Positions 18,011 through 31,946 are shown, counted from the stretch's first letter. The stretch: 64,000 nucleotides of DNA from Pseudogemmatithrix spongiicola (GCF_030623445.1 NZ_CP130613.1:2666001-2730000), one strand, 5' to 3'. The notes: generated by a model not told the origin, from the sequence alone. Numbers and translations are program-made.

Positions 18011-19756
18011 ATGACCCAGGGAGTTGCATTTTCCGGAATGGTCCAGACTCCGACACGCCCTCCCCAGCAGTCGCGCGAGCCCTACGACGTCGTCATCGTC
18101 GGCTCCGGCGCCGGCGGCGGCATGGCCGCCTACGAACTCACCAAGGCCGGCGCGCGCGTCGCGCTCCTCGAAGCCGGCGGCCACTGGGACAACACGAGCA
18201 GCCAGTACTCGGCCATGCTCAAGATGCCCTATGATTCGCCCCGCCGCGGGGCCTCCACCCCGGACCGCCCCTTCGGTGAGTGGGACGCGAACATCGGTGG
18301 CTGGCAGATCCCCGGCGAGCCGTACACCAAAGCCGAAGGCACCAAGTTCGACTGGTGGCGTGCCCGCATGCTCGGCGGCCGCACGAATCACTGGGGCCGC
18401 ATCTCGCTGCGCTTCGGGCCCGATGACTTCCGCCGCAAGTCGCTCGACGGCATGGGCGACGACTGGCCCATCACGTACGATGACCTCAAGCCCTGGTACG
18501 ACGAGGTGGATCGCCTGATCGGCATCTTCGGTTCGGTCGAGGGCCTGCCGAACGAACCCGACGGCATCTTCCACGCGCCGCCGGCCCCGCGTTACTACGA
18601 GCGCCGCGTCAAGGAAGCCTGCGACCGGATGCAGATCACTTGCATCCCCGCGCGACTCTCGATCATCACCAAGCCGCACAACGGACGCGCGCCCTGCCAC
18701 TACTGCGGCCAGTGCAACCGCGGCTGCATGACGAACTCGAACTTCAGTTCGCCCAACGTGCTGATCTTCCCCGCCCTGCGTACCGGGCGGCTCACGCTGG
18801 TCACCAACGCGATGGCCCGCGAGGTCAGCACCGGCGAGGACGGCCGCGCGACGGGCGTGCACTACATCGACAAGACTACGGGCGAAGACAAGCACATCCG
18901 AGGCAAGATCGTCGTGCTCGCGGCCAGCGCGCTCGAGACCTCGCGCATCCTGATGAACTCCAAGTCCTCGCGGCATCCGCAGGGCTTGGCCAACGCCAGC
19001 GGCGTGCTCGGCAAGTACATCACCGACACCACGGGCACGGACGTCGCCGGCTTCATCCCCTCGCTGGTGGATGTGCCGCGCCACAACGCCGACGGCGTGG
19101 GCGGCAATCACATCATGATGCCGTGGTGGCTCGACAACAAGAAGTTGGATTTCCCCCGCGGCTATCACATCGAAGTCTGGGGCGGGCTGGGCATGCCGAC
19201 CTACGGCTTCATGGGTGGCATCGAGCGCTATCCGGAGGGCGGCGGCTACGGCACCGACCTCAAGCAGCAGTACCGCAAGTACTGGGGCGCGACGGTCGGC
19301 TTCTCCGGCCGCGGCGAGATGATCCCCAACGACAAGTCGTTCTGCGAGCTGGATCCCACGGTCACCGACAAGTGGGGCATCCCGGTGCTGCGTTTCCACT
19401 GGGAGTGGCGCGACACCGAGTACCTCCAGGTGAAGCACATGCAGGAGACGTTCCGCGCAATCATCGCCGAGATGGGCGGCGAAGTGTGGAGCAACATGCC
19501 GACGCGCGAACAGGGCTACGGCATCGCCAACGGCGGCGCGATCATCCACGAACTCGGCGGCGCGCGCATGGGCGCCTCCGAGCGCGACTCGGCGCTCAAC
19601 AGCAACTGCCAGGCCTGGGACTGCGAGAACCTGTTCGTCGCCGATGGCGCGCCATTCGTGAGCCAGGCGGACAAGAATCCCACGTGGACCATCATGGCGC
19701 TGTCGATGCGGACCAGCGCCTACATCACGCAGCAGCGCCGTGCGGGGAGACTCTGA
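18011..19756 (+). CDS. GMC family FAD-dependent oxidoreductase
   Basis: 581 residues. The FAD-binding Rossmann motif VVIVGSGAGGG lies at about 27-37. A cysteine cluster HYCGQCNRGC sits mid-protein. The C-terminal GMC block has the catalytic H513 in IIHELGGARMG and N556 in KNPTWTIMA. It is related to the large subunit of membrane-bound gluconate/sugar dehydrogenases, oxidising a hydroxyl of a sugar or alcohol and passing electrons to a cytochrome or another acceptor. The next gene encodes the matching small subunit, one base after the stop. No twin-arginine leader is present here, but the partner subunit has one and could carry both. Start ATG 18011; ATG 18038 is possible. Confidence 0.9.
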   Translation: MTQGVAFSGMVQTPTRPPQQSREPYDVVIVGSGAGGGMAAYELTKAGARVALLEAGGHWDNTSSQYSAMLKMPYDSPRRGASTPDRPFGEWDANIGGWQIPGEPYTKAEGTKFDWWRARMLGGRTNHWGRISLRFGPDDFRRKSLDGMGDDWPITYDDLKPWYDEVDRLIGIFGSVEGLPNEPDGIFHAPPAPRYYERRVKEACDRMQITCIPARLSIITKPHNGRAPCHYCGQCNRGCMTNSNFSSPNVLIFPALRTGRLTLVTNAMAREVSTGEDGRATGVHYIDKTTGEDKHIRGKIVVLAASALETSRILMNSKSSRHPQGLANASGVLGKYITDTTGTDVAGFIPSLVDVPRHNADGVGGNHIMMPWWLDNKKLDFPRGYHIEVWGGLGMPTYGFMGGIERYPEGGGYGTDLKQQYRKYWGATVGFSGRGEMIPNDKSFCELDPTVTDKWGIPVLRFHWEWRDTEYLQVKHMQETFRAIIAEMGGEVWSNMPTREQGYGIANGGAIIHELGGARMGASERDSALNSNCQAWDCENLFVADGAPFVSQADKNPTWTIMALSMRTSAYITQQRRAGRL

Positions 19757-19757
19757 G

Positions 19758-20381
19758 ATGAGCGAGATGAACCGTCGCGACATGCTCGCGTCCATCGCGG
19801 CCGGAGCGGCTGCGCTGTCGATCCCCCGCGAAGGCCTCGAAGCCGCCGCCGCGCACGCGCACGAGGCCGTGGCCGCCGAGGAGCAGGCGCAGCAGCAGGG
19901 GCAGCAGCCAGCGGCGTACGTGCCGAAGCAGTTCACCGCGGACGAGTACCGCCTCGTGCGCCTGCTCGTGGACTACGTGATTCCCCGCGACGCGCGCTCG
20001 GGCTCGGCCACGCAGGCCGGCGTGCCACAGTTCATGGATTTCATCCTGGGCGAGTATCCCGGGAACCGCACGTGGATGAAGGACGGCATCGCGTGGGTGA
20101 ACGCCGAGTGCCGTCGGCGCTTCGGGCAGGGATTCATCTCCTGCAACGATGCGCAGCGGCGAGAGCTGCTCGACGCGATCGCCTATCCGCGACGGGCGCG
20201 GGAGCAGGATCGGCCGGTGGTGGAGTTCTTCAATCGCTTCCGCAACCTCACGTCGAGCGGGTTCTGGACGAGCCGCATGGGCATTGCGGACCTCGGGTAT
20301 ATCGGCAACCGACCGGTGATGGAATGGGTGGGCACACCGCCGAACGTGCTCGCGTGGCTCGAGCGGAGCAAGCCGTCGTGA
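19758..20381 (+). CDS. Gluconate 2-dehydrogenase subunit 3-like protein (Tat leader)
   Basis: 207 residues. The N-terminus (MNRRDMLASIAAGAAALSIP) is a twin-arginine-like leader. A Gln/Ala-rich linker follows, then the subunit 3 domain with FTADEYRLVRLLVDYVIPRD and a C-terminal FWTSRMGIADLGYIGN and W-rich end. This family is the small partner of GMC dehydrogenases, helping export and assembly. The gene starts one base after the GMC stop, and its stop overlaps the next gene's GTG. Confidence 0.88.
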   Translation: MSEMNRRDMLASIAAGAAALSIPREGLEAAAAHAHEAVAAEEQAQQQGQQPAAYVPKQFTADEYRLVRLLVDYVIPRDARSGSATQAGVPQFMDFILGEYPGNRTWMKDGIAWVNAECRRRFGQGFISCNDAQRRELLDAIAYPRRAREQDRPVVEFFNRFRNLTSSGFWTSRMGIADLGYIGNRPVMEWVGTPPNVLAWLERSKPS

Positions 20382-21787
20382 GCTTGCGGCACGTCTGCGG
20401 CACCGTCCTCCTGGGTGCGGTGCTCGTCGCCCCAAGTCACCTGCCGAGCCAATCGCCGCCGATGGCGCCGTCGGCCGCGCTCGCCCGCGAACTCCTCGCC
20501 GAGATGGTCGCCGCACGTACGCTTGACACCGGCAACACCACGCCGCTCGCCGAGTCCCTCGCCCGCCGCTTCCGCAGCGCCGGCTTCCCCACGGCCGACG
20601 TCATGGTCGTCGGCGCCGGCCCCAGCAACCGCAACTTGGTCGTCCGCTTCCGCGGCCGCGACAGCACCCGCGCCCCCATCCTCTTCCTCGCGCACCTCGA
20701 CGTCGTCGACGCCGAGCCGCAGCGCTGGCGCACCGACCCGTGGACGCTCACCGAGCGCGACGGCATGCTCTGGGGCCGCGGCGTCCTCGACGACAAGGGC
20801 CCGGCGGCGACCATTGCCGCCGCCTTCCTCGAGGCGAAGGCCGCAGGCTTCACACCGCAGCGCGACCTCGTCATGGCCCTCACCGCCGGCGAGGAGAGCG
20901 GCGTCGACAACGGCGTGCAATGGCTGGTCGCGAATCGCCCGGACCTCGTGCGCGCCGAGTACGTGGTGAACGCCGACGGCGGGGGCGGCGAGATGGAGAA
21001 CGGTCGCCGCATCGCCTTCAACGTGCAGGCGGCGGAAAAGGTCTACCTCGACCTGACGCTCACGGTGAAGGGGCCCGGCGGCCACTCGTCGATGCCCGAC
21101 GGCCCGAATCCGATCGAACGCCTCAGCAACGGCATCGCGCGCCTCGCGCGGCACGAGTTCCCGGTGAACATCACGCCGGTCGTGCGCAGCTACCTCGCGC
21201 AGCGCGCCCCGATGACGCCCGGCGAGCTGGGGCGGGCAATGGCTGCCCTCGGACGCAATCCGCAGGACTTCACGGCGGCGCGCACGCTCAGCGCCACGGC
21301 CACGACCAACGCCCTGATCCGCACGACCTGCATCACGACGCTCATGAGTGGCGGGACCGCACCGAACGCCATCCCCGCGACGGCAACCGCGAACGTGAAC
21401 TGCCGCGTCATTCCCGGAGAGCGTCAGGAACACATCGTCGAGGCCATCCGCCAAGCCATCGCCGATCCGACCGTCGAGATCGCCGTGCGCGAACCGATGA
21501 AGCCCAGCGAGCCGAGCCTCATGGGTCCGGAACTCCGCGCCGTGCTCGAGAGCACCATCACCGACCTCTACGGCCGCCTGCCCGTCATCACCTACATGGA
21601 GATGGGCGCTACCGACGGACTCTATTTGCGCTACGCGGGCATCCCGGTATTCGGGATCATCGGGCTCTTCGCGCCCAACGACATTCTCGCCTCACTGCAC
21701 GGCAATGACGAACGCGTACCCGTTGAGGCTTACGCGCGGTCCGCAGAGTTCATGCGGCGTTTGGTGCGGGCCCTCGGCACGCGCTGA
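20378..21787 (+). CDS. Secreted M20 family metallopeptidase
   Basis: 469 residues from a GTG overlapping the previous stop (GTGA). A signal peptide covers about the first 25 residues. The dinuclear zinc site of the M20 family is clear: H106 and D108 in AHLDVV, bridging D138 in GRGVLDDKG, E172 and E173 in TAGEESG. The dimerisation domain contains GGHSSMPDGPNP. It should act as a carboxypeptidase or dipeptidase in the periplasm. The last 58 bases overlap the end of the Rrf2 gene on the other strand. Confidence 0.9.
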   Translation: MSLRHVCGTVLLGAVLVAPSHLPSQSPPMAPSAALARELLAEMVAARTLDTGNTTPLAESLARRFRSAGFPTADVMVVGAGPSNRNLVVRFRGRDSTRAPILFLAHLDVVDAEPQRWRTDPWTLTERDGMLWGRGVLDDKGPAATIAAAFLEAKAAGFTPQRDLVMALTAGEESGVDNGVQWLVANRPDLVRAEYVVNADGGGGEMENGRRIAFNVQAAEKVYLDLTLTVKGPGGHSSMPDGPNPIERLSNGIARLARHEFPVNITPVVRSYLAQRAPMTPGELGRAMAALGRNPQDFTAARTLSATATTNALIRTTCITTLMSGGTAPNAIPATATANVNCRVIPGERQEHIVEAIRQAIADPTVEIAVREPMKPSEPSLMGPELRAVLESTITDLYGRLPVITYMEMGATDGLYLRYAGIPVFGIIGLFAPNDILASLHGNDERVPVEAYARSAEFMRRLVRALGTR

Positions 21788-22215
21788 CCGCGCGAGCCCG
21801 TGCGCGGCCGCGGCACCTCACGGCCCGCCATCCGCGCGACGGTCGTCTCGTGCAAGAAGGCGAGCACGCGATCCGCGATGGGCTTCCAGGCCTCATGCGC
21901 TTCGCAGGCGGCCGCGGCGTTGCAGCGCCCGCCGCCGAGCAAGCAGCCTCGGTACCGGGCAGGCGGATCGAACGGCTTCACGACTTCCGCGAGCGTGAGT
22001 GCGTCGGCGGCCCGGCCGAGCCGGAACCCGCCGCCTCGCCCGCGACGCGACTCGAGCACGCCGGCTGCCGCAAGCTGGTGCAGGAGCTTCGAGAGGTAGT
22101 TGGCCGGCACGTCCACGTCGGTTGCGAGGTCGTTGGCCTGTGCCCAGACGCCGGGCTCCAGCTTGGCGAGCCGCACGGCGACGCGCACCGCGTACTCGGC
22201 GCTTTGGTTCAGCAT
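21730..22215 (-). CDS. Rrf2 family regulator with three cysteines (NsrR/IscR-like)
   Basis: 161 residues. MLNQSAEYAVRVAVRLAKL begins the winged helix, followed by PANYLSKLLHQLAAAGVLESRRGRGGGF, the DNA-reading part. C91, C98 and C104 (C-x6-C-x5-C) match the place where IscR/NsrR bind a [2Fe-2S] or [4Fe-4S] cluster. A long basic tail of ~35 residues follows. Such regulators sense NO or cluster status. It is the third gene of the minus-strand operon that starts with the cytochrome b fusion, so it probably controls that operon and the divergent heme-copper operon. That target is an inference. It could instead be an IscR-like Fe-S regulator. Confidence 0.88.
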   Translation of the reverse strand: MLNQSAEYAVRVAVRLAKLEPGVWAQANDLATDVDVPANYLSKLLHQLAAAGVLESRRGRGGGFRLGRAADALTLAEVVKPFDPPARYRGCLLGGGRCNAAAACEAHEAWKPIADRVLAFLHETTVARMAGREVPRPRTGSRGQRVPRARTKRRMNSADRA

Positions 22216-22264
22216 CGGTCTCCCCCGTGCTGCGCGAGGAAGGCGCGGCTCGATGCGTCGTCGG

Positions 22265-22801
22265 TCACGGGGTGCGGAGCTGGAGCCGACCGTCGACGAG
22301 TGCGACGAGTGCGACAGCGGAAGCGGAGAGCGTCACGGTAGTGTCAAGCGTCAGGTCGCGCGGCACGGCGCCGCGCCGGACATTGCTTGAATCCATCGGG
22401 GCCTCCGCCGGTTCCACACGGGCGAACCGAATCACGACGCGTCGCTGACCGGGGGAGACGGGGAACTCATCGAGCACGAAGATCGCACGGTCATTGCGCA
22501 GCCCACCGCCCCGGAGCACACGGTCTTCGTGGGATGCACCGTCCACCGCCAGCGACAGCCGGTAGGTGGCCGACGCGCCGCTGCACTCGCGCGCTTGCCG
22601 CATGTGGGCGGGCCGAGTGGCGAGTTCCTCGGGCGTGAGGTCGCGGCATTGCTCGATGCGTTCCGGACGCGCCACCCACGAGAGGCGCACGACGGCCGCG
22701 TCGGCCCCATGCCAGCGCACGTCGGCGGCTGAGCTCTTCGCCAGGAGCCAGCCAAAGCCGACGGTCACGACGAGCGCCACGATGCGACGACGCCAGGTCA
22801 T
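22265..22801 (-). CDS. Membrane-anchored periplasmic protein of the heme-copper locus, unknown
   Basis: 178 residues. A single N-terminal membrane segment (RRRIVALVVTVGFGWLLA) is followed by a periplasmic beta-rich domain with two cysteines (EQCRDLTPEE and ARECSGASA) and LAVDGASHEDRVLRGGG. No family is recognised. It overlaps the cytochrome b fusion gene by four bases (ATGA at 22801-22798) and precedes the Rrf2 gene by 49 bases. The tight coupling suggests it serves the same respiratory protein, perhaps as a periplasmic subunit or assembly factor. Confidence 0.65.
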   Translation of the reverse strand: MTWRRRIVALVVTVGFGWLLAKSSAADVRWHGADAAVVRLSWVARPERIEQCRDLTPEELATRPAHMRQARECSGASATYRLSLAVDGASHEDRVLRGGGLRNDRAIFVLDEFPVSPGQRRVVIRFARVEPAEAPMDSSNVRRGAVPRDLTLDTTVTLSASAVALVALVDGRLQLRTP

Positions 22802-24369
22802 GCCTCGACCTCGGCCGGCAATGGCTCGCACAGCAAGCGAATATCCACGTCCTCCTCCACCTCAGGGCCATCGAGCGCCGTCACGGCGGCCACAAACGCG
22901 CGATACTCGGCGAGCGTCGCATCCGAGAGGCCGGCGGGTGCCGTCGTGAGGCAGACGCGCCGACGATCCACACGGGCCTGCAACTCGGCTTCCCGGTCGT
23001 GGAACATCCGCAAGTCGGTCCACTTGGGACCCTCGCGCGCCGCGCAATCACGCGGTGGGCAGCCGGCGACGAACACCCCGGCCGCGCCCTGCCGGAGCAA
23101 CAGCTCGATCACCGAGGTGTGCAGGGTGCCGATGCACGGCACCTCGTGCAGCGTCGCACCGGCGTGTCGCAGGTGCGCGCGCAGCGCCATGTCGGTCTGT
23201 CCGCAGTACACCGCAACGATCCGGGGACCGTTGCCGAGCGCACGGAGCTGTGGTAGCAGCGCGCTGCGAACGTCCACCAGTTGGTGCCGACCCGTGCGTC
23301 CTTCGGGGCCCACACCCATGGGCGCGCAGGACGCCGCGCAGATGCCACAACTGACGCAGAGGGCGGGATCCACCAGCGCGACGAGGGTCGGCCGGTTGTC
23401 CGTGCGCGGCACCATCGTGATCGCGCCCCACGGGCAATCCTGTGTGCACTGGTCACAGCCCGTGCAGAGGCGCGGATCCACCACGCTCGGCGCGAACGAA
23501 CCCTCGCGTGGGCGGCGCGTGAGCCACGGGACGGATACCGCGACCGCGAGCAGCAGTACCGTTGCGCCCCAGACGAGCAACGGGGGTCGCGACTCGGCGA
23601 GTGGGATCCACCACGCCGTGCTGAAGTTGAGCGGCGTGGTGGCGGGCACACGCAGCGCATCGGCCGCGGGCCCAAGCGGCGCGGGCATGGCGACTGCCAG
23701 CGCAATGAGTCCGAGCGCGAGGCCCCAACGCAGCGCGCGGGGCGGTGCGAGCATCGGGCGCGCGACCTTCGAGACATGCAGCCACAGACCGATGCCCATG
23801 CCCAGCGGCAGGCCGATGTGAACGAACAGATTGAGGAAGAAGAACGCCGACGGCATCGCACGGTCGCCGGCGAAGATGCGGCTCACGGGCTCGGAGAGCA
23901 CCGGCAGCACATCGAAGAGCCGCGCACCCGCCAGCGCCACGCGCTGTCCGAAGGAATCCCACGCCATCACGAAGCCCGTCCACGCGCAGGCGAGCCCGAT
24001 GCCGACCAGCGCGACGCCGGAGATCCACGCGCGGGCCCGCGGGCCCCAGCTGCGCGCTTGGCCAAACACGCGCAGCCCGTGAATGACCGCGGCCACGAGG
24101 AAGAGATCGGTGGCGTAGCGATGCACGCTGCGCATCCAACTGCCGAGCCACGGGTCGGCAGCGATGCGCTGCACGGAGGCCGCGGGCGCACCGACGCGAT
24201 AGAACAGGATGAGATAGAGTCCCGTGACCGTGAGCACCGCGAGCAGGTATGCGGCGATCGTGCCGCTCTGGTGCAGCGGATTGAGTCGCCAGACGGCGAC
24301 GCGGTGCATGGCGGCGTCGGCAACGCGCAGGCTTCGGCGCGTGGCGCGTTCGAGGTGTCGGAGAATCAC
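22798..24369 (-). CDS. Cytochrome b - 2x[4Fe-4S] ferredoxin - MvhD-like fusion protein
   Basis: 523 residues. Residues ~30-280 are a cytochrome b N-terminal domain. Four heme-ligating histidines are present as H83/H97 and H184/H198, each pair spaced H-x13-H as in bc1 cytochrome b. The C-terminal cytochrome b part with the PEWY quinol loop is absent. Two [4Fe-4S] motifs follow: C302, C305, C308, C312 and C338, C341, C344, C348. Residues ~380-475 resemble MvhD/FlpD, the [2Fe-2S] subunit linking hydrogenase to heterodisulfide reductase, with C389, C412, C437 and C442. The protein should pass electrons between membrane quinone or hemes and cytoplasmic iron-sulfur or thiol partners. GTG 24369 is used; ATG 24309 is an alternative. 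It is divergent from the heme-copper operon. Confidence 0.88.
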   Translation of the reverse strand: MILRHLERATRRSLRVADAAMHRVAVWRLNPLHQSGTIAAYLLAVLTVTGLYLILFYRVGAPAASVQRIAADPWLGSWMRSVHRYATDLFLVAAVIHGLRVFGQARSWGPRARAWISGVALVGIGLACAWTGFVMAWDSFGQRVALAGARLFDVLPVLSEPVSRIFAGDRAMPSAFFFLNLFVHIGLPLGMGIGLWLHVSKVARPMLAPPRALRWGLALGLIALAVAMPAPLGPAADALRVPATTPLNFSTAWWIPLAESRPPLLVWGATVLLLAVAVSVPWLTRRPREGSFAPSVVDPRLCTGCDQCTQDCPWGAITMVPRTDNRPTLVALVDPALCVSCGICAASCAPMGVGPEGRTGRHQLVDVRSALLPQLRALGNGPRIVAVYCGQTDMALRAHLRHAGATLHEVPCIGTLHTSVIELLLRQGAAGVFVAGCPPRDCAAREGPKWTDLRMFHDREAELQARVDRRRVCLTTAPAGLSDATLAEYRAFVAAVTALDGPEVEEDVDIRLLCEPLPAEVEA

Positions 24370-24413
24370 GGGCAGCGCCCCGGGGACTTCCCCGACAGCC
24401 CGCGAAACCGCAT

Positions 24414-24442
24414 TTGCGCCGAATCTCTCATAGGCGTATGAT
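24414..24442 (+). promoter_or_regulatory. Near-consensus sigma70 promoter of the heme-copper operon
   Basis: TTGCGC (24414-24419), a 17-base spacer, TATGAT (24437-24442). The first gene starts 56 bases downstream with GGAGG in place. It is the clearest -35/-10 pair in this section. Confidence 0.65.
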
Positions 24443-24443
24443 A
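24426..24443. promoter_or_regulatory. Dyad operator candidate over the -10 box
   Basis: TCTCATA-GGCG-TATGATA: the arms match at six of seven positions around a four-base spacer, and the inner TCATA/TATGA is perfect. The right arm includes the whole -10 box of the promoter for the heme-copper operon. A repressor bound here would block the promoter. The candidate binder is the Rrf2 protein at 21730-22215; an FNR/CRP-type regulator with an N4-spaced site is also possible. Confidence 0.5.
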
Positions 24444-24497
24444 TTTGCGATTCCGGCGCCCGTCCAGCCGGATGCCCCCCCCAATGGAGGACTGCGC

Positions 24498-24665
24498 ATG
24501 GATCCCACTCGGGACGAACAGGGCGACGAGCCCGTGCCGCGGCTGCAGCGGCTCTTCGACAACATGTGGTTGCTGCTGATCGTCGGTATGGTCGTGATGC
24601 TGGTCGTGTACACCGGCTGGGGGATGTTCGAGATCCTCACGATGCCGGAAGCCACCCTTCCCTGA
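24498..24665 (+). CDS. Small single-helix subunit of the heme-copper enzyme
   Basis: 55 residues: an acidic N-terminus (MDPTRDEQGDEP), then one membrane helix (WLLLIVGMVVMLVVYTGW). GGAGG lies seven bases before the ATG. Its place 16 bases before subunit II and its form match the small IIa/CcoQ-type helix subunits of oxidases. It probably completes the subunit II membrane part or stabilises subunit I. An upstream in-frame start at 24414 would sit inside the promoter and is rejected. Confidence 0.72.
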   Translation: MDPTRDEQGDEPVPRLQRLFDNMWLLLIVGMVVMLVVYTGWGMFEILTMPEATLP

Positions 24666-24681
24666 GCCGAGCCCCCCCACA

Positions 24682-25287
24682 ATGCTCACCAAAGTGCACA
24701 CGGGACTCGATCCCGTCCCCGGCGTGTGGTGGAAGCCGGCCCACAAGTCCGAGAAGATCTGGGTCGGCATCGCCTTCGTGTGGTGCATGATCCTCTTCGC
24801 GATGATGCCGCTCTGGCACTGGAAGGGCGGCCAGAACCCGTCGGGCATCCGTCGCAAGGTCGATCCGCAGGCGTTCTACGCGCGCACCGTCGCCTTCGCC
24901 GCGCAGCACCAGATCGGCGATGACCGCGGCGTGCCGATCGTCGCGCCGCCGCCGGGCTCCGACATCTACCTCACGGCGATGGCCTACCAGTGGTATCCGA
25001 TCCTGCAGCTGGAGAAGGACAAGGAGTACACGCTGCACCTCTCCGCGCTGGACGTGAACCACGGCTTCAGCCTGTATCCGCTCAACGTGAACTTCCAGGT
25101 GATTCCGGGCTACGATTACGGCCTGCGCGTGACGCCGACGGCGAGCGGTGACTTCCGCATCATCTGCAACGAGTTCTGCGGCATCGGGCACCACACGATG
25201 GTGGGCCGGATGATCGTCGTGGACGAACAGGGCGCCGTCGTCGCCGACAACGAGTCGGCGAGCGTGCACGGGGAGGACCGGAAATGA
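24682..25287 (+). CDS. Heme-copper oxidoreductase subunit II (CuA)
   Basis: 201 residues. One membrane helix at ~26-46, then a periplasmic cupredoxin. The dinuclear CuA ligands are complete: H127 in DVNHGFS and C162, E164, C166, H170, M173 in CNEFCGIGHHTM. It therefore takes electrons from cytochrome c or a small copper protein and hands them to subunit I. The single helix and short length resemble ba3-type subunit II. The stop overlaps the subunit I start by four bases. Confidence 0.93.
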   Translation: MLTKVHTGLDPVPGVWWKPAHKSEKIWVGIAFVWCMILFAMMPLWHWKGGQNPSGIRRKVDPQAFYARTVAFAAQHQIGDDRGVPIVAPPPGSDIYLTAMAYQWYPILQLEKDKEYTLHLSALDVNHGFSLYPLNVNFQVIPGYDYGLRVTPTASGDFRIICNEFCGIGHHTMVGRMIVVDEQGAVVADNESASVHGEDRK

Positions 25288-27035
25288 CCGCCCCCGCCAT
25301 GACCGCGGAGTCCTTCCGCACCTGCGAAGTCACCGGCCGCAAGATCCATCGGCAGGCCGAGCTGCTGGTCCGGGCGAACGCCGTCGTCGCCGTGGTCGCG
25401 CTTCTGATCGGCGCGATCGCCGCGCTCCTGCTCGTGCTCACGCGCTGGCAGGCCGTGCACCTGCTGCCCGCCGACTGGTACTACCGGCTGCTCGGCGTGC
25501 ACGGCATGAACATGCTGATCTTCTTCATCATCTATTTCGAGATGGCGGTGCTGTGGTTCGCGGGCACCGTGCTGCTCAACGCACGGCCGGCGGCCCCGCG
25601 CTTCGGCTGGTTCAACTTCGGCCTGATGCTGCTCGGCACGCTGATGGTGGAGTGGGCCCAGTGGACCGGCCGCGCCGACGTGCTGTTCACGTCGTACACG
25701 CCGCTGCGCGCGCATCCCGTCTACTACCTCGGCATCATCCTCTTCGCCGTGGGCGCGCTGCTGGTCACGTTCCAGTTCTTCGCGACGCTGAGCATCGCCA
25801 AGAAGGAGCGCACGTACGAAGGCTCGATGCCGCTGGTCGTCTACGGCGCGCTGACGGCGGCGATCATCGCGGTGATCACGCTGGTGCACGGCGCGCTGAT
25901 CTACGTGCCGACCTTCCTGTGGTCGCTGAACCTGATGGAGATGCCCGACCCGCAGGTGTACCGGATGGTCTGGTGGGCGCTGGGCCACTCGTCGCAGCAG
26001 ATCAACATGGCCGCGCAGGTGGCCATCTGGTATATGCTCGGCGCGCTCACCGTCGGCGCCGTCGTGCTCAACGAGAAGGTGAGCCGCACGGCCTTCGTGC
26101 TCTACATCCTGTTCATCTCGATGGCCTCGGCGCACCACCTGCTGGTGGACCCGGGCTTCGGGCCGGCGTGGAAGATCACGAACACCTCGTACTTCATGTA
26201 TATGGCCGTGCTGGCCTCGATGATCCACGGCTTCACGATCCCCGCTGGGATGGAACTCGGGATGCGCTTGCGCGGCTACACCGAGGGCCTGTTCGGATGG
26301 CTGCGCCGCGCACCCTGGGGCGACCCAGGATTCAGCGCGCTGGTGCTCTCGGTGATCATCTTCGGCTTCGTCGGTGGCATCACCGGCGTCACGATCGGCA
26401 CGGAGCAGATCAACATCGTCGTGCACAACACGCTGCGCGTGCCGGGCCACTTCCACTCCACCGTGGTGAGCGGCACGGCGATGGCCTTCATGGGCGTCAC
26501 CTACTACCTGCTGCCGCTGGTGTTCCGGCGGAAGGTGGCGTTCTGGGGCCTGGCGAAGATCCAGCCGTACCTCTTCTCGCTCGGCGTGCTGCTGCTCGCG
26601 ATGGGCATGACCTTCGCCGGCAGCTTCGGCGTGCCCCGTCGGCACTGGGACATCTCGTTCAGCAACGCGCCCTACGGCGTGGAGTTCACGCCGGCGGTCG
26701 ACCTGATGCTCGCCATCATGGGCATCGGCGGCATCCTCGCCGTGACCGGTGCGCTGATCTTCATCGCGATTGCGGTGAAGTCGGTGTTCTTCGGCGAGAA
26801 GATCGAGACGATCACCCGCGGCACGGCGATGGTCGGCGTGCCGCAGGGCCTCACGCACCCCCCGGTGCACGCGGCCGATGCCGACGCCAGGAACGAGGAG
26901 TTCCACGCGCCGGCCCGCGGCTGGATGGGCCCGACGCCGGGGACGATCATCCTCGTCGCGGTGTTCTTCATCGCGTTCGTGACGTACTACTTCACCAACT
27001 GGAAGTTGCTGTCGTTCCTATGGAAGGTCGGTTGA
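25284..27035 (+). CDS. Heme-copper oxidoreductase catalytic subunit without the active-site tyrosine; probable non-canonical NO reductase
   Basis: 583 residues with about thirteen membrane helices. All metal ligands are present: H73 and H391 for the low-spin heme, H389 for the high-spin heme, and H235, H284, H285 for CuB (LGHSSQQ, SAHHLLVDPG, PGHFHS). In oxygen reductases of A and B type, the residue four after the first CuB histidine is the cross-linked tyrosine (HPEVY). Here it is Q239. The alternative helix VII tyrosine of cbb3 oxidases is also missing (isoleucine at that place). The HHLLVDPGF segment is closest to B-type oxidases. Published non-canonical NO reductases derived from oxidases, such as eNOR, lack this tyrosine, so NO reduction is the favoured role (from memory; not proven here). 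It is not cNOR/qNOR, whose HLWVEG motif is absent. Confidence 0.85.
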   Translation: MTAPAMTAESFRTCEVTGRKIHRQAELLVRANAVVAVVALLIGAIAALLLVLTRWQAVHLLPADWYYRLLGVHGMNMLIFFIIYFEMAVLWFAGTVLLNARPAAPRFGWFNFGLMLLGTLMVEWAQWTGRADVLFTSYTPLRAHPVYYLGIILFAVGALLVTFQFFATLSIAKKERTYEGSMPLVVYGALTAAIIAVITLVHGALIYVPTFLWSLNLMEMPDPQVYRMVWWALGHSSQQINMAAQVAIWYMLGALTVGAVVLNEKVSRTAFVLYILFISMASAHHLLVDPGFGPAWKITNTSYFMYMAVLASMIHGFTIPAGMELGMRLRGYTEGLFGWLRRAPWGDPGFSALVLSVIIFGFVGGITGVTIGTEQINIVVHNTLRVPGHFHSTVVSGTAMAFMGVTYYLLPLVFRRKVAFWGLAKIQPYLFSLGVLLLAMGMTFAGSFGVPRRHWDISFSNAPYGVEFTPAVDLMLAIMGIGGILAVTGALIFIAIAVKSVFFGEKIETITRGTAMVGVPQGLTHPPVHAADADARNEEFHAPARGWMGPTPGTIILVAVFFIAFVTYYFTNWKLLSFLWKVG

Positions 27036-27943
27036 CGTCCCCCGCGAGGCCACGGCCGCCGCTGGCGGCCGTGGCCCTCGCGGCCATCCTCGCCATCAGC
27101 GTGGCGTGGTGGGCCCTGGCCCTCTGGCCTTTGGAGCCCACTGCGCCGGAGTGGCTGCTTCGCACGCGTGAGGTCTGCTTCGGCTCCACGCACAGCGGCC
27201 TGCCGCACGCCGGTGGCTGGCTGCTGTTGATCGGCGAGCCCATCGGGCTCATCGGGTTCCTCGCCATCGTCTGGGGCGAGGAGCTCCGCGCCGACCTGCG
27301 ACGCATCCGTGCGCACGCGGCCGGCGGCGTCACGATGGCCGTGGTGGCCATCCTCGTCGTCTCCGGGCTCTTCGCCTCGGTGCGCCGCGTCGCTGCGGCC
27401 TCGGGCGGCGACGCCGAGCCCTTCGCGCTCAACGCCGACCTCCCGGCGCGCGGTTCGGCGCTGGCCCCGGCGCTCTCGCTCATCGACCAATCGGGCGAGG
27501 CGGTCTCGCTCGCGCAGTTCACCGGACGCTGGGTGATAGTCACTTTCGCCTTCGGGCACTGCGAGGACATCTGCCCCGTGATCGTCGAACACGCACGCCG
27601 TGCGCGCGCGGACGAAGGCGCCACGGACATCCCGATCTTCGTCGTCACGCTGGATCCCTGGCGCGACACGCCGGACCGCCTCGCGTTCATCGCCGGCGCC
27701 TGGCAGCTCGAGGGCGAGGACCGCGTGCTCTCGGGCTCGGTGGAGATCGTCAACGCCACGCTGGACCGCTGGCGCATCGCGCGCGAGCGCGACGAGAACA
27801 CCGGCATGATCGCCCACGGCAGCACCATCGTGCTCGTGGACCCGCAGGGTCGCGAGGCCTGGCGCGTGGAAGGCTCGCCGCAGCGCATTCGCGAAGCCAT
27901 CGCGCTCGCCCGCGTGGAGTCGAAGGCCAGCGAATCCCGCTGA
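27020..27943 (+). CDS. SCO1/SenC family copper chaperone with extra N-terminal membrane domain
   Basis: 307 residues, starting 16 bases inside the end of subunit I. The C-terminal thioredoxin-like domain has the copper-binding C181-x3-C185 (GHCEDICPV) and H266 (MIAHGS). SCO proteins deliver copper to CuA of subunit II, which fits its place. Unusually, the N-terminus has about three membrane helices (~17-33, ~62-80, ~98-115) and a THSGLPHAGG loop, where most SCO proteins have one helix. The added part may help to dock to the enzyme. Its stop is followed by the convergent cupin gene. Confidence 0.9.
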   Translation: MEGRLTSPARPRPPLAAVALAAILAISVAWWALALWPLEPTAPEWLLRTREVCFGSTHSGLPHAGGWLLLIGEPIGLIGFLAIVWGEELRADLRRIRAHAAGGVTMAVVAILVVSGLFASVRRVAAASGGDAEPFALNADLPARGSALAPALSLIDQSGEAVSLAQFTGRWVIVTFAFGHCEDICPVIVEHARRARADEGATDIPIFVVTLDPWRDTPDRLAFIAGAWQLEGEDRVLSGSVEIVNATLDRWRIARERDENTGMIAHGSTIVLVDPQGREAWRVEGSPQRIREAIALARVESKASESR

Positions 27944-27978
27944 GCGCCGCGCGTATCGCGCGGCGCTCCCGCCACCGC

Positions 27979-28302
27979 TCAGTGCTTGCGGATGATTGAC
28001 GCGAGGATGCAGAAGCGCTCGGCGTCGGCGCGCATCCCGTGGAGCTCGCCGGGCGCGTAGGTCACCACCGTGCCGGGGCCTGCCGAGGTCTCGCCGTCGG
28101 GGCCGGAGATCGTCCCGCGCCCGCTGATCACCGTCAGCAGCACCGTCGCCTCGGACGTATGCGGCGCCACTTGCTGCCCCGGCTCGATGCGAAACACCAC
28201 CAGCCGCACGCCGGGCACATCGTGCACCACCGCCGTCGCCGGCCGGCTGGGATGGGCTTGCACCGCCGCCTCGGCCGCAGCCTGCACATCGAGGACGTTC
28301 AT
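27979..28302 (-). CDS. Cupin domain protein
   Basis: 107 residues forming one cupin barrel: VVFRIEPGQQVAPHTSEATVLLTVISG with one histidine of the usual metal site, a central GPDGETSAGPGTVV turn and APGELHGM at the second motif. It is small and cytoplasmic. Its start overlaps the DUF542 gene stop (ATGA), so the two are translated together. Cupins of this kind accompany DUF542/hemerythrin proteins of NO stress loci in several bacteria. Its ligand is unknown. Confidence 0.8.
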   Translation of the reverse strand: MNVLDVQAAAEAAVQAHPSRPATAVVHDVPGVRLVVFRIEPGQQVAPHTSEATVLLTVISGRGTISGPDGETSAGPGTVVTYAPGELHGMRADAERFCILASIIRKH

Positions 28303-28508
28303 CGCGCCTCCGCCATCGCCCGTGCCAGCGCGTCGAGCAGCGCCGTCTCGTCGACGAGGTCGGCGATCGCCGCCTCGTGCACCGTGCGGTGCGCCCCGCA
28401 GCAACTGTCCACGCCGAATGCGTTGAACACGGCCATCGTGGCCGGATGTTGAGCCATCAGGTCATCCACGGTGCGAGACCGCAGGTCGGACGTCGTCAGG
28501 TCGGTCAC
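28299..28508 (-). CDS. DUF542 (ScdA_N) domain protein, RIC-type N-terminal module
   Basis: 69 residues from a GTG with AGGAG before it. The sequence matches the N-terminal domain of the iron-sulfur cluster repair proteins YtfE/ScdA: TVDDLMAQHPATMAVFNAFGVD followed by the conserved SCCGAHRTVHEA cysteine pair. The di-iron hemerythrin domain that usually follows is missing, so this is the stand-alone version. Such proteins are induced by nitric oxide. It starts a minus-strand pair with the cupin and is divergent from the SufR-like regulator. Confidence 0.85.
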   Translation of the reverse strand: MTDLTTSDLRSRTVDDLMAQHPATMAVFNAFGVDSCCGAHRTVHEAAIADLVDETALLDALARAMAEAR

Positions 28509-28526
28509 GGGAGCTCCTGGAAGATT

Positions 28527-28544
28527 TCAAGGAAAATACCTTGA
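28527..28544. promoter_or_regulatory. Perfect palindrome between divergent DUF542 and regulator genes
   Basis: TCAAGG-AAAATA-CCTTGA, an exact 6-6-6 inverted repeat. It lies 18 bases before the DUF542 GTG and about 88 bases before the regulator GTG, in the only AT-rich patch of the region. This is a likely operator for the SufR-like regulator or an NO-responsive factor. Confidence 0.55.
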
Positions 28545-28631
28545 CTATTGACCCGGCGCAAGCCATTCTCACTGCACCAACGCAGCTGCCCTCCGACCGC
28601 CCGCCTCACTCGCCTCCGCTTCCCGGCCGCC

Positions 28632-29267
28632 GTGTACGAACCGACACCGCTCACCCCGAGCCATCGCGGCGTCCTCGACGCGCTCAAGCGTCGCGGCCGC
28701 AGCACCGTCCCCGAGCTGGCCCGCGAACTCTCGCTCAACGTCGAGACGCTGCGCGAGCATCTCCAGACGCTCGAGGCGCGCCAGCTCGTCGCGCGCGTCG
28801 GCAGCGCCAAGGGCGGACCCGGACGGCCGAGCATCCTCTACGCGCTCACGGAGAGTGCCGAGGCGCTGTTTCCGCGCAACGAGGGCGAGCTGCTGCGCGG
28901 ACTCTCGGCGTTTCTCGTCGAGGCCGGCCACACGCCCCTGCTGCGCAAGTTCTATGACCGGCAGCTCGCCGAGCGTCGCCGTGCCGCGATGGCGCGCGTG
29001 GAGGGACTCGAGGGCGAGGAGCGCCTGCAGGAAGTGCTGCAGATCTTCACCGAGTTGGGCTATATGCCGGAACTGGACGAAGTCGACGGCGCGCCGCGCC
29101 TGCGGCTCTGTCACTGCCCCGTGCGCGATATGGTCGCTGCGACGCACGTGCCCTGCCGCGCCGAGATCTCGCTGCTGCGCGACCTGCTCGGCGAGGATCC
29201 CAAGCGCGTCAGCTTCATTCCCGACGGCGCGGAGTCCTGCAGCTACCAGCTCGACGTCCGCGGCTGA
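28632..29267 (+). CDS. SufR-like (COG2345) helix-turn-helix regulator with iron-sulfur cysteines
   Basis: 211 residues from GTG 28632. Residues ~8-75 form a winged helix (GVLDALKRRGRSTVPELARELSLNV is its core, given here in part as KRRGRSTVPELARE). A coiled dimer region follows with LRKFYDRQLAERR. The C-terminal domain has C160, C162, C175 and C203 (LCHCP, PCRAE, SCSYQ), the placing seen in SufR and related regulators that bind a [4Fe-4S] cluster. The cluster can sense NO or oxidative damage. It probably controls the divergent DUF542/cupin pair through the palindrome at 28527-28544 and also itself. An upstream ATG at 28548 is possible but adds an atypical basic segment. Confidence 0.82.
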   Translation: MYEPTPLTPSHRGVLDALKRRGRSTVPELARELSLNVETLREHLQTLEARQLVARVGSAKGGPGRPSILYALTESAEALFPRNEGELLRGLSAFLVEAGHTPLLRKFYDRQLAERRRAAMARVEGLEGEERLQEVLQIFTELGYMPELDEVDGAPRLRLCHCPVRDMVAATHVPCRAEISLLRDLLGEDPKRVSFIPDGAESCSYQLDVRG

Positions 29268-29321
29268 AGTCCCCCGTCGCGAGGCGACGGTTTACACCCC
29301 CAACCCCCGGAGCGAGCGCCG

Positions 29322-29552
29322 ATGGCGACGCCGACCATGCTGGATGTCCGTACGATCCCACCGCGTGAGAAGCACGCGACCATCTTCCGCACCTTCGACG
29401 CCCTCGCGCCGGGCGAGCACTTCACCCTGGTGAACGACCACGACCCGGTGCCGCTGCACTATCAGTTCCAGACGCAGCGCACGGGCGCGTTCCGCTGGGA
29501 GTACACCGAGCGCGGTCCGAGCATCTGGCGCGTGGAGATCTCGCGGCGCTGA
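29322..29552 (+). CDS. DUF2249 protein
   Basis: 76 residues. The whole protein is one DUF2249 domain: LDVRTIPPREKHATIFRTFD, FTLVNDHDPVPLHYQF and a C-terminal WEYTERGPSIWRVEI. DUF2249 domains occur beside nitric oxide reductases, hemerythrins and denitrification regulators; their biochemical role is unknown. It is 54 bases after the SufR-like gene and probably in the same transcript. Confidence 0.85.
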   Translation: MATPTMLDVRTIPPREKHATIFRTFDALAPGEHFTLVNDHDPVPLHYQFQTQRTGAFRWEYTERGPSIWRVEISRR

Positions 29553-29588
29553 AGGCACGGGGCGCCCGTCTGGCGCCCGGCGCGGGTA

Positions 29589-30632
29589 TCAGCCGGCCGC
29601 GGCGGCGGGTTCGTGCCGCAGCGGCACCCACACCGCGTGCACCGCGAGCACGCCCAGCGTGAGGGCCAGCGTGCCGACGAACTGGTGCAGCACGCCGAGC
29701 GCGACGGGCACCGCCATCAGCAGCGTGACGATGCCGAGCCCGAACTGCACGGCGATCGCCATGCCGAACCAGCGCACGGCGGTCGCGCCGTACTCCCCGA
29801 GGATCTCCGGCCGCGCGCGCCAAGCGAGCACGAGACTGAGAATCCCCGTGAGCGTGGCCAACACGCGATGGTGGAACTGCGCCGCGACGGGATTCTCGAA
29901 CGCGTTCGTCCACCAGCCGACCAGCGCCTGGTAGCCCGGCGGCACGACCTGGCCGCCCATCAGCGGAAACTCGTTGAACACCTTGCCGCCGCGCAGGCCG
30001 GCGACGAACGCGCCGGACACCACGGTGATCGCCAGCAAGCTCACGACGCCGAGCACCGCCCAGCGCCACGGCGCCTCGGCGCGCACTTCCTCACGCCTGG
30101 GATCGAGGTCCGCCCAGGTCCAGAGGGCGATGACGAGGATCGTCAGCGCGAGCGTGAGGTGCGCGGCGAGCCGATACGCGCTCACCTCGGTGCGCACCTC
30201 GAGGCCACTGCTCACCATGTACCAACCGAGCACCCCTTGGGCCAAGGTCAGGAGCGGCAGCCACGCCAGTCGCATCGCGTAGCGTTGCGGCATCGTGCCC
30301 TTGGCGACGAAGTACAGGAAGGGAATCGCGAAGACCAATCCCACGGCGCGCGCGGCGATGCGATGGAACCATTCCCACCAGTAGATCCACTTGAACTGCG
30401 CCATCGTGATGCCGGCGTGCGTGGTCTGCGCCTGCGGGATCTGCTGGAACTTCCGCAGCGCGTCGTCCCAGGCGGCCTCGTTCATCGGCGGGAACACGCC
30501 GGCCACCGGCTTCCACTCGGTGATGGAGAGCCCGCTCTCGGTGAGGCGGGTGATGCCGCCGATCACGACGGCGAAGAACACCGACACGATGCAGGCCATG
30601 AGCCAGCGTCGGACCGCGATGTGCTCGTGCAT
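29589..30632 (-). CDS. ctaA: Heme A synthase (CtaA/COX15 family)
   Basis: 347 residues with eight membrane helices. Conserved family segments are visible: GGITRLTESGLSITEWKP near the N-terminus, WEWFHRIAARAVG (heme histidine), RLAAHLTLAL, FHHRVLATLTG and LHQFVGTLAL with the paired histidines for the heme b cofactor and heme o substrate. It lacks the N-terminal extracellular cysteine pair of Bacillus CtaA, as in the proteobacterial/mitochondrial COX15 class. It converts heme O to heme A, so at least one heme a enzyme is made, perhaps the heme-copper enzyme encoded next to it. ATG 30632 is chosen. Confidence 0.92.
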   Translation of the reverse strand: MHEHIAVRRWLMACIVSVFFAVVIGGITRLTESGLSITEWKPVAGVFPPMNEAAWDDALRKFQQIPQAQTTHAGITMAQFKWIYWWEWFHRIAARAVGLVFAIPFLYFVAKGTMPQRYAMRLAWLPLLTLAQGVLGWYMVSSGLEVRTEVSAYRLAAHLTLALTILVIALWTWADLDPRREEVRAEAPWRWAVLGVVSLLAITVVSGAFVAGLRGGKVFNEFPLMGGQVVPPGYQALVGWWTNAFENPVAAQFHHRVLATLTGILSLVLAWRARPEILGEYGATAVRWFGMAIAVQFGLGIVTLLMAVPVALGVLHQFVGTLALTLGVLAVHAVWVPLRHEPAAAAG

Positions 30633-30707
30633 GCATGGACGATAGTCAGGACGCCGCCCGAGTGCTATCTCTAAAGCGTCACCTTCACCCGGAATCTGGA
30701 CACGGTA

Positions 30708-31946
30708 ATGAGCGCACCCCTCGGCGTCGGCTTCATCGGTTCGGGCTTCAACACCCGCTTTCACATCCAGGGCTGGCGCGGCGTCCGCGACGCGGACGTG
30801 CGCGGCGTCTGGTCACCCAACGCGGCGAACGCCGCCAGCGCGGCCAGGCTCGCCCGCGACTGCGACGTCGGTCAGGCGAAGGCCTACAAGTCCATCACGG
30901 CGATGGTCGCCGATCCGAACATCGACGCCCTCTGGCTCTGCGGCCCCAACCAGGCGCGCATCGAGAACGTCGAGGAGATCGTCCACGCCATCAAGAGCGG
31001 CAAGGGCACGCTCAAGGGCATCGCCTGCGAGAAGCCGCTGGCCCGCAACGTGGCCGAGGCCGAGGAGGTGCAGCGCCTCGTGAAGAGCGTGGGGCTCAAG
31101 ACGGGCTACCTCGAGAACCAGCTCTTCGCGCCGCACGTCGAGGCGGGCAAGAAGCTCATCTGGGCCCGCGGTGCGGCCACGACCGGCCGGCCGTACCTCG
31201 CCCGTGCCGCCGAGGAGCACTCGGGCCCGCACGCGCCGTGGTTCTGGAACGGCGCACTGCAGGGTGGCGGCGTGCTCAACGACATGATGTGCCACTCGGC
31301 GCTCGTCGTGCGTCACCTCCTCACCGAACCGGGCAAGCCGCTCAGCTCCGTGAAGCCCGTGCGCATCACCGGTCACATCGCCTCGCTCAAGTGGTCGCGA
31401 CCGAGCTACGCGAAGAAGCTCCAGAAGACCTACGGCCGCGCCATCGACTACACCAAGCGGCCCAGCGAGGACTACGCCAGCATCCTCATCGAGTTCAAGA
31501 CGGCCGACGGCCACAAGGTCATCGGCGAGGCCTCCACGTCGTGGAGCTTCGTCGGCGCGGGCCTGCGCCTCTCGGCCGAGTTGCTCGGCCCCGAGTATTC
31601 GATGAAGTGGAACTCGCTGGACTCCGGCCTCAACCTGTTCTTCTCGCGCGAAGTCACCGGCCGCGCCGGCGAAGATCTCGTGGAGAAGCAGAACGCCGAG
31701 CAGGGCGTGATGCCGGTCGTTCCCGAGGAGTACGCGGCCTACGGCTACACGAACGAGGACCGCCACTTCGTGCGCGTCTTCCAGGGCAAGGAGAAGGCGA
31801 TGCTCGACTTCGCCGACGGCGTCGAGGTGGTGAAGATGCTGATGACGGCGTACCGCTCGGCCGAGCAGGGCAAGACGCTGGCGTATCCCAACCGCGGCAT
31901 CGATCGCTATATGCCGAAGGTGGCCAAGGGCACCTGGCGGCCGTGA
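30708..31946 (+). CDS. Gfo/Idh/MocA family oxidoreductase
   Basis: 412 residues. The Rossmann fold starts GVGFIGSGFNTRFHIQGW, and the family EKP motif is ACEKPLARN. A C-terminal alpha/beta domain carries GGGVLNDMMCHS with a histidine at the active site. There is no signal peptide, so it acts in the cytoplasm with NAD(P). The substrate is likely a sugar or sugar derivative. It is coupled to the MFS gene that follows by a GTGA overlap, which suggests uptake and oxidation of the same compound. Confidence 0.9.
   Translation: MSAPLGVGFIGSGFNTRFHIQGWRGVRDADVRGVWSPNAANAASAARLARDCDVGQAKAYKSITAMVADPNIDALWLCGPNQARIENVEEIVHAIKSGKGTLKGIACEKPLARNVAEAEEVQRLVKSVGLKTGYLENQLFAPHVEAGKKLIWARGAATTGRPYLARAAEEHSGPHAPWFWNGALQGGGVLNDMMCHSALVVRHLLTEPGKPLSSVKPVRITGHIASLKWSRPSYAKKLQKTYGRAIDYTKRPSEDYASILIEFKTADGHKVIGEASTSWSFVGAGLRLSAELLGPEYSMKWNSLDSGLNLFFSREVTGRAGEDLVEKQNAEQGVMPVVPEEYAAYGYTNEDRHFVRVFQGKEKAMLDFADGVEVVKMLMTAYRSAEQGKTLAYPNRGIDRYMPKVAKGTWRP

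Follow-up and report, generated by a model that had tools for sequence, protein, structure and literature searches.

Organisation of the locus

The window, by which we mean the whole stretch of 64,000 nucleotides that was analysed, belongs to a 3.26-Mb single-contig genome placed in the Gemmatimonadota by its named relatives, and the features found in it are collected in Table 1. Two divergent operons meet at about 24370-24498. The leftward operon encodes, in this order, a cytochrome b fusion protein, a 188-aa protein and an Rrf2 regulator; the rightward operon encodes a subunit IIa-like ORF, a CuA subunit II, a heme-copper subunit I and an SCO protein. A palindrome with one mismatch to TATCAT-N6-ATGATA lies between them. 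All the genes named in the first-pass annotation were recovered at the places it gave, with a support well above chance. Upstream, at 18011-20381, the window also encodes a GMC oxidoreductase and a gluconate-2-dehydrogenase subunit 3-like protein with no apparent link to NO.

Table 1. Position, strand and supporting evidence of the features at the locus (positions counted from the first letter of the window)
Feature	Position	Strand	Basis
Rrf2 regulator, Fe-S type, CLLG...C...C..H subtype	21730-22215	-	Pfam Rrf2, E=4e-27
Membrane-anchored protein of 188 aa, its gene overlapping the cytochrome b gene at the latter's end	22265-22831	-	conserved neighbour
Cytochrome b6 / 2x[4Fe-4S] / FlpD (MvhD) fusion, putative eNOR electron-transfer partner	22798-24369	-	co-occurrence, profiles
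Palindrome TCTCATAGGCGTATGATA (TATCAT-N6-ATGATA), predicted Rrf2 operator	24426-24443	.	comparison across loci
Subunit IIa-like one-helix ORF	24498-24665	+	precedes the CuA gene at most loci
eNOR subunit II, CuA site	24682-25287	+	Pfam COX2; ligands kept
eNOR subunit I, heme-copper catalytic, Gln239 replacing Tyr	25284-27035	+	E=5e-62
SCO copper chaperone, N-terminal membrane part	about 27020-27943	+	Pfam SCO1-SenC, 9e-23; kept after subunit I
Cupin	27979-28302	-	Pfam Cupin_2; overlaps the DUF542 gene
DUF542 (ScdA_N), stand-alone	28299-28508	-	Pfam, E=5e-10
SufR-like winged-helix regulator, C-terminal Cys	28548-29267	+	linked to denitrification genes
DUF2249 protein	29322-29552	+	Pfam, E=2e-30
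Heme A synthase (CtaA), for the supply of heme	29589-30764	-	Pfam COX15-CtaA, E=1e-95; near eNOR in several relatives

Classification of the heme-copper enzyme

Subunit I is a B-family heme-copper protein whose closest solved structures are ba3 oxidases. It reads GHSSQQIN at the site where oxidases read GHPxVYFW, the Gln being Q239, which bears out the tyrosine-less enzyme of the first-pass annotation. The motif H-x-x-Q-Q-[IV]-N is retained in all the ~120 subunit I orthologues, from many phyla, whereas GHxxVYFW is retained in seven Tyr-type B oxidases (haloarchaea, Deinococcus, Geobacillus, Gemmatimonadota), relative to which the Gln-type group is monophyletic (FastTree, support 0.925). The cross-linked His-Tyr pair of B-family O2 reductases is absent, no Tyr being found at +4 from the CuB His. 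In subunit II, the CuA ligands H127, C162, E164, C166, H170 and M173 are all conserved.

The enzyme eNOR is already known, as a purified protein from Rhodothermus. It is marked by a Gln at the position of the cross-linked Tyr of the B-family subunit I, a diagnostic site that is occupied by Asn in sNOR and CuANOR and by Asp in gNOR (PMC8756737). Since both this Gln and a cupredoxin (CuA) subunit II gene directly upstream of subunit I are found in the window, we file the enzyme as an eNOR on these two features. Linkage to nirK is a further trait shared with described eNOR (PMC8756737, PMC4653789). The SCO gene had also brought sNOR into consideration, as the norSY-senC systems of Nitrosomonas and Bacillota likewise combine a B-family subunit I, a cupredoxin subunit II and SCO/SenC in one operon (PMC6967387), but they have Asn where the window enzyme has Gln (PMC8756737 Table A4) and this class was discarded.

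Two variants were observed among related loci. In the eNOR-like subunit I of Thermus thermophilus plasmids (L038:7983-9668, L039:7821-9503), GHFK replaces GHFH, so that the second His, a heme ligand in ba3, is a Lys. In several phyla, a second heme-copper-fold protein adjoins eNOR (L101:11710-13218, L099:6352-7851, L105:17994-19568, L119:17836-19566, L112:7679-9223, L108:10601-12034, L076:14775-16214, L080:13928-15292); it has lost the His-His pair that binds CuB but retains the HYH that binds heme and, in helix VI, one His (GHxLQ), and is possibly a heme-only relative of the NO reductase.

Genomic evidence for NO as the probable substrate

With Gln at the Tyr position, the reaction expected is 2 NO -> N2O rather than O2 to water. 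We surveyed 298 Gemmatimonadota genomes, counting NirK and NosZ over curated cut-offs: an eNOR orthologue occurs in 67, NirK in 42 and clade II NosZ in 99. NirK is present in 20 of the 67 genomes with eNOR against 22 of the 231 without (p=8e-5), and eNOR also co-occurs with NosZ (p=0.004 over the 298 genomes, p=5e-4 inside the family); the eNOR-NirK link inside the family is not significant (p=0.14), and these p-values are optimistic because the genomes are related. All three of NirK, eNOR and NosZ are found together in nine genomes, and neither nirK nor nosZ passes its cut-off in 24 of the 67. At the level of gene order, four genomes (G166, G167, G238, G217) have a NirK over cut-off no more than a few kb away from eNOR, NirS and NirJ adjoin it at other loci, and eNOR and NirK share one operon in Ardenticatena (PMC4653789). 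The first-pass annotation had proposed comparing gene order across genomes and had held that an order conserved only with oxygen reductases would speak against a role in NO metabolism; the order is indeed conserved, and it is NirK or NirS that neighbours eNOR in relatives.

The enzyme might instead be a high-affinity B-family O2 reductase that merely lacks the Tyr, its regulators answering to low oxygen. The fold and the closest solved structures would suit such an enzyme, oxidases too are served by heme A synthase and SCO, and O2 reduction has been argued for the related sNOR of Nitrosomonas (PMC6967387); the genome moreover already has two oxidases, one of them aa3 (GHPEVY) and the other probably of the cbb3 type. 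We consider this very improbable, because the Tyr is absent from all the ~120 orthologues and because the NirK/NirS neighbours and the nirK/nosZ co-occurrence are both missing for Tyr-type B oxidases: the 30 genomes with Tyr-type-like B oxidases show no tie to NirK (p=0.64) or NosZ (p=0.72). NO reduction is thus well supported as the predicted function, by the Gln of all orthologues, the NirK/NirS gene order and the co-occurrence with nirK and nosZ.

Denitrification genes in the source genome

Genome content was assessed by family searches against curated cut-offs. In the window, cNOR, NirK, NirS and NosZ gave no match over cut-off, in line with the absence of cNOR, nitrite reductase and nitrous oxide reductase reported for it earlier. 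Outside the window, a clade II nosZ (G000:C1:2318037-2319836, 923 bits) is accompanied by NosD and an ABC transporter and lies beside an NsrR/RirA-like Rrf2 protein; over the whole genome, NirK, NirS and NarG gave nothing over cut-off and NrfA no match. Of the genes that the first-pass annotation had suggested seeking elsewhere in the genome, nosZ was therefore found and nirK and nirS were not, and its description of a partial denitrifier or an NO detoxifier agrees with a genome that has eNOR and NosZ without nirK, nirS, narG or nrfA. This gene content predicts a consumer of the NO and N2O that other organisms produce. A small CcoN-like membrane protein (145-153 aa) recurs beside nosZ, nirK and SufR-like genes, including next to the nosZ of this genome (L137:12569-13030; similar at L157:10936-11373, L161:7935-8375 and L170:2795-3250).

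The cytochrome b6/ferredoxin/FlpD fusion

Compared by profile with solved structures, the 523-aa fusion protein matches cytochrome b6 (1.7e-31), an HdrA/FwdF-type ferredoxin and MvhD (8e-14), and its structure model (pLDDT 89) has the bc1/b6f fold. His83, 97, 184 and 198, the eight ferredoxin Cys and the four FlpD Cys are 97-100% conserved over 64 loci. The protein resembles known cytochrome b6 and MvhD/HdrA carriers in its b6 part with two b hemes, its ferredoxin and MvhD domains and its fold, but unites these three parts in a single polypeptide next to an NO reductase and, unlike cytochrome b6 carriers, has no Rieske protein gene alongside. Both eNOR and the fusion occur in 67 of the 298 genomes, and in 64 they occur together (Fisher p=2e-57, optimistic for related genomes); eNOR stands without it in G119, G175 and G203, the last holding a divergent 46% homologue, and the fusion without eNOR in 3 genomes. 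On this co-occurrence, the fusion is an almost obligate partner of eNOR. Its gene is divergent from eNOR in the Gemmatimonadota and lies on the same strand, downstream of SCO, in Proteobacteria, Bdellovibrionota and others. The first-pass annotation had remarked that the set, cytochrome b fusion included, does not match a textbook nor operon; this needs qualifying, as the enzyme is assigned to a known kind and the fusion is no oddity.

Judging by the bc1-like fold and the positive N-terminus, the Fe-S/FlpD part probably lies in the cytoplasm. The 188-aa companion combines an N-terminal membrane helix with a beta-sandwich and two invariant Cys, and a fold search against the PDB gave nothing below E=1e-3. 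As neither a Rieske protein nor a cytochrome c is encoded with the fusion, and as its Fe-S/FlpD end would face the cytoplasm, away from CuA, it could also act as a sensor of redox state or quinones, or as an independent ferredoxin:quinone enzyme, and stay next to eNOR because the two are regulated together. We regard this as rather unlikely: the co-occurrence in 64 of 67 genomes and a linkage kept across differing gene orders favour a direct partner.

The Rrf2 regulator and its predicted operator

The Rrf2 protein has exactly three Cys (C91, C98, C104), as had been noticed earlier, plus H107, and these residues are kept in most eNOR-linked Rrf2 proteins. It resembles NsrR in its Rrf2 fold, its three Cys and its position beside NO genes. 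It nevertheless scores 46 bits against a cut-off of 182 for the NCBIfam NsrR equivalog, its spacing is C-x6-C-x5-C-x2-H, and the operator predicted for it departs from gATGyAT-N5-ATrCATc, the consensus of NsrR (PMC1274295); an assignment to NsrR was rejected.

A search for dyads just upstream of the IIa gene gave only a weak signal, because Rrf2 is the first gene in most relatives; the palindrome came to light when the search was moved to the DNA divergent from the cytochrome b gene. Its arms give TATCAT and TATGAT, -10-like and one per strand, so that it overlaps -10-like elements of both divergent operons. No second site in the 3.26-Mb genome has one mismatch or fewer, and at eNOR loci the 163 kb upstream of eNOR contain 25 such sites, the 1.35 Mb of flanking DNA none. 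Perfect sites number 23 in the 298 genomes. Nine are at eNOR; in G037 and G237 the site separates nosCZ from an Rrf2 gene, and in G044 it adjoins an Rrf2 gene. The Rrf2 proteins at these last three sites have CxLGR-x-x-C-x5-C-x2-H, as do most at eNOR loci. Because the palindrome recurs at eNOR and beside nosZ, near Rrf2 genes of one subtype, comparison makes TATCAT-N6-ATGATA the likely Rrf2 operator, and an iron-sulfur regulator belonging to the locus itself probably switches eNOR. The same palindrome separates the nosCZ operon from the divergent Rrf2 gene at L168:4271 and L169:4132, which suggests that eNOR and nosZ are under shared control in relatives. That a regulator other than the neighbouring Rrf2 binds the palindrome seems improbable to us: a clear site is missing at some Rrf2-bearing eNOR loci and for some sites the surrounding DNA that was examined holds no Rrf2 gene, but the perfect sites far from eNOR (G037, G237, G044) also abut Rrf2 genes of the same Cys signature.

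A second, looser module

The SufR-like regulator is not a SufR (45.7 bits, NCBIfam cut-off 178.8). Its orthologues (at least 45% identity) are present in 17 of the 298 genomes, among which 11 have eNOR (p=1.4e-4), 14 NosZ (p=2.6e-5) and 7 NirK (p=0.004), and its gene travels with DUF2249, DUF542 and cupin genes. The block lies near eNOR in few genomes (the window and L071/G146, L070/G166 having the SufR-like gene alone). Since few eNOR loci have them, DUF542, cupin and DUF2249 were excluded from the conserved eNOR core; judged by this distribution, cupin, DUF542, SufR-like and DUF2249 genes form a second, looser denitrification-linked module. The single compact NO locus proposed by the first-pass annotation holds up as an NO-reduction locus on the genomic evidence, made up however of two modules, the second present at few eNOR loci. 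On Thermus plasmids, Rrf2, DUF542 and cupin genes come immediately after the eNOR genes. DUF2249 genes go up when Haloferax denitrifies (PMC11218638); in Thermus, nitrate respiration involves two DUF2249 proteins, DrpA and DrpB (PMC6282519).

Proposed function

We propose that the core at 21730-27943 encodes a respiratory eNOR-type NO reductase performing 2 NO -> N2O, which would receive electrons through the CuA of subunit II and be matured by SCO and heme a/o synthesis. One proton channel is expected of an eNOR, and energy conservation may use a K-channel-like path formed by Glu24 (subunit II) and S312, H315, Y250 and N241 (subunit I), all conserved, but the ba3 residues Y244 and T312 are V246 and H315 here. 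The fusion and its 188-aa companion would form a dedicated electron-transfer module between the cytoplasm, the quinone pool and eNOR, direction and route being predicted. The Fe-S-type Rrf2 presumably sits on TATCAT-N6-ATGATA over both -10 regions and represses both operons, until NO damages its cluster and releases it from the operator. Together with the clade II NosZ of this genome, eNOR would consume external NO and N2O, and the cupin/DUF542/SufR-like/DUF2249 genes would serve as an accessory set against NO or Fe-S damage. We give the respiratory core, dedicated fusion module, NO-released repressor, cooperation with NosZ and accessory block, taken jointly, a probability of about 0.82.

A related reading, compatible with this one, is NO detoxification without a respiratory role, in which the system guards aerobic metabolism from the NO of neighbours and the fusion feeds in cytoplasmic reductant. 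The genome has no NO-producing nitrite reductase, the DUF542 and SufR-like block suggests Fe-S damage, and the predicted Rrf2 control would also fit; as the NosZ of the same genome, an operator common to nosZ in relatives and the partly conserved K-channel-like path point to respiration, we judge it possible rather than probable.

Significance

Described eNOR differ from the one found here in that the b/ferredoxin/FlpD partner, the Rrf2 regulator and the operator are undescribed for them, and the Gemmatimonadota unnamed among their bearers, in the literature searched. That literature yielded no account of the partner module, of the Rrf2 subtype and its operator, or of eNOR in the role of NO reductase of Gemmatimonadota; the primary eNOR paper lay outside it and may already describe parts of this. 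We lean towards the view that eNOR in the Gemmatimonadota and several other phyla is a dedicated respiratory unit whose b6/ferredoxin/FlpD carrier connects NO reduction with the quinone pool or with reductant of the cytoplasm, and that a non-NsrR Rrf2 subtype, acting through its own operator TATCAT-N6-ATGATA, governs a hitherto undescribed NO or redox regulon made up of eNOR and, in some species, nosZ.

Gemmatimonadota stand out among the carriers of clade II nosZ. Surveys found many with nir and nosZ and without nor, or no genome with a complete denitrification pathway (PMC12569097, PMC10581226). Given the 67 of 298 genomes with eNOR and the nine with NirK, eNOR and NosZ, this nor gap may partly be missed annotation; plasmid records label relatives of the gene "cbb3-type" or "b(o/a)3 oxidase". 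The locus suggests how bacteria thought to be without a nitric oxide reductase convert NO to N2O, and the partner and the operator open two questions to testing, the source of the electrons for eNOR and the means by which it and NosZ are switched, both of which bear on which bacteria produce or remove N2O.
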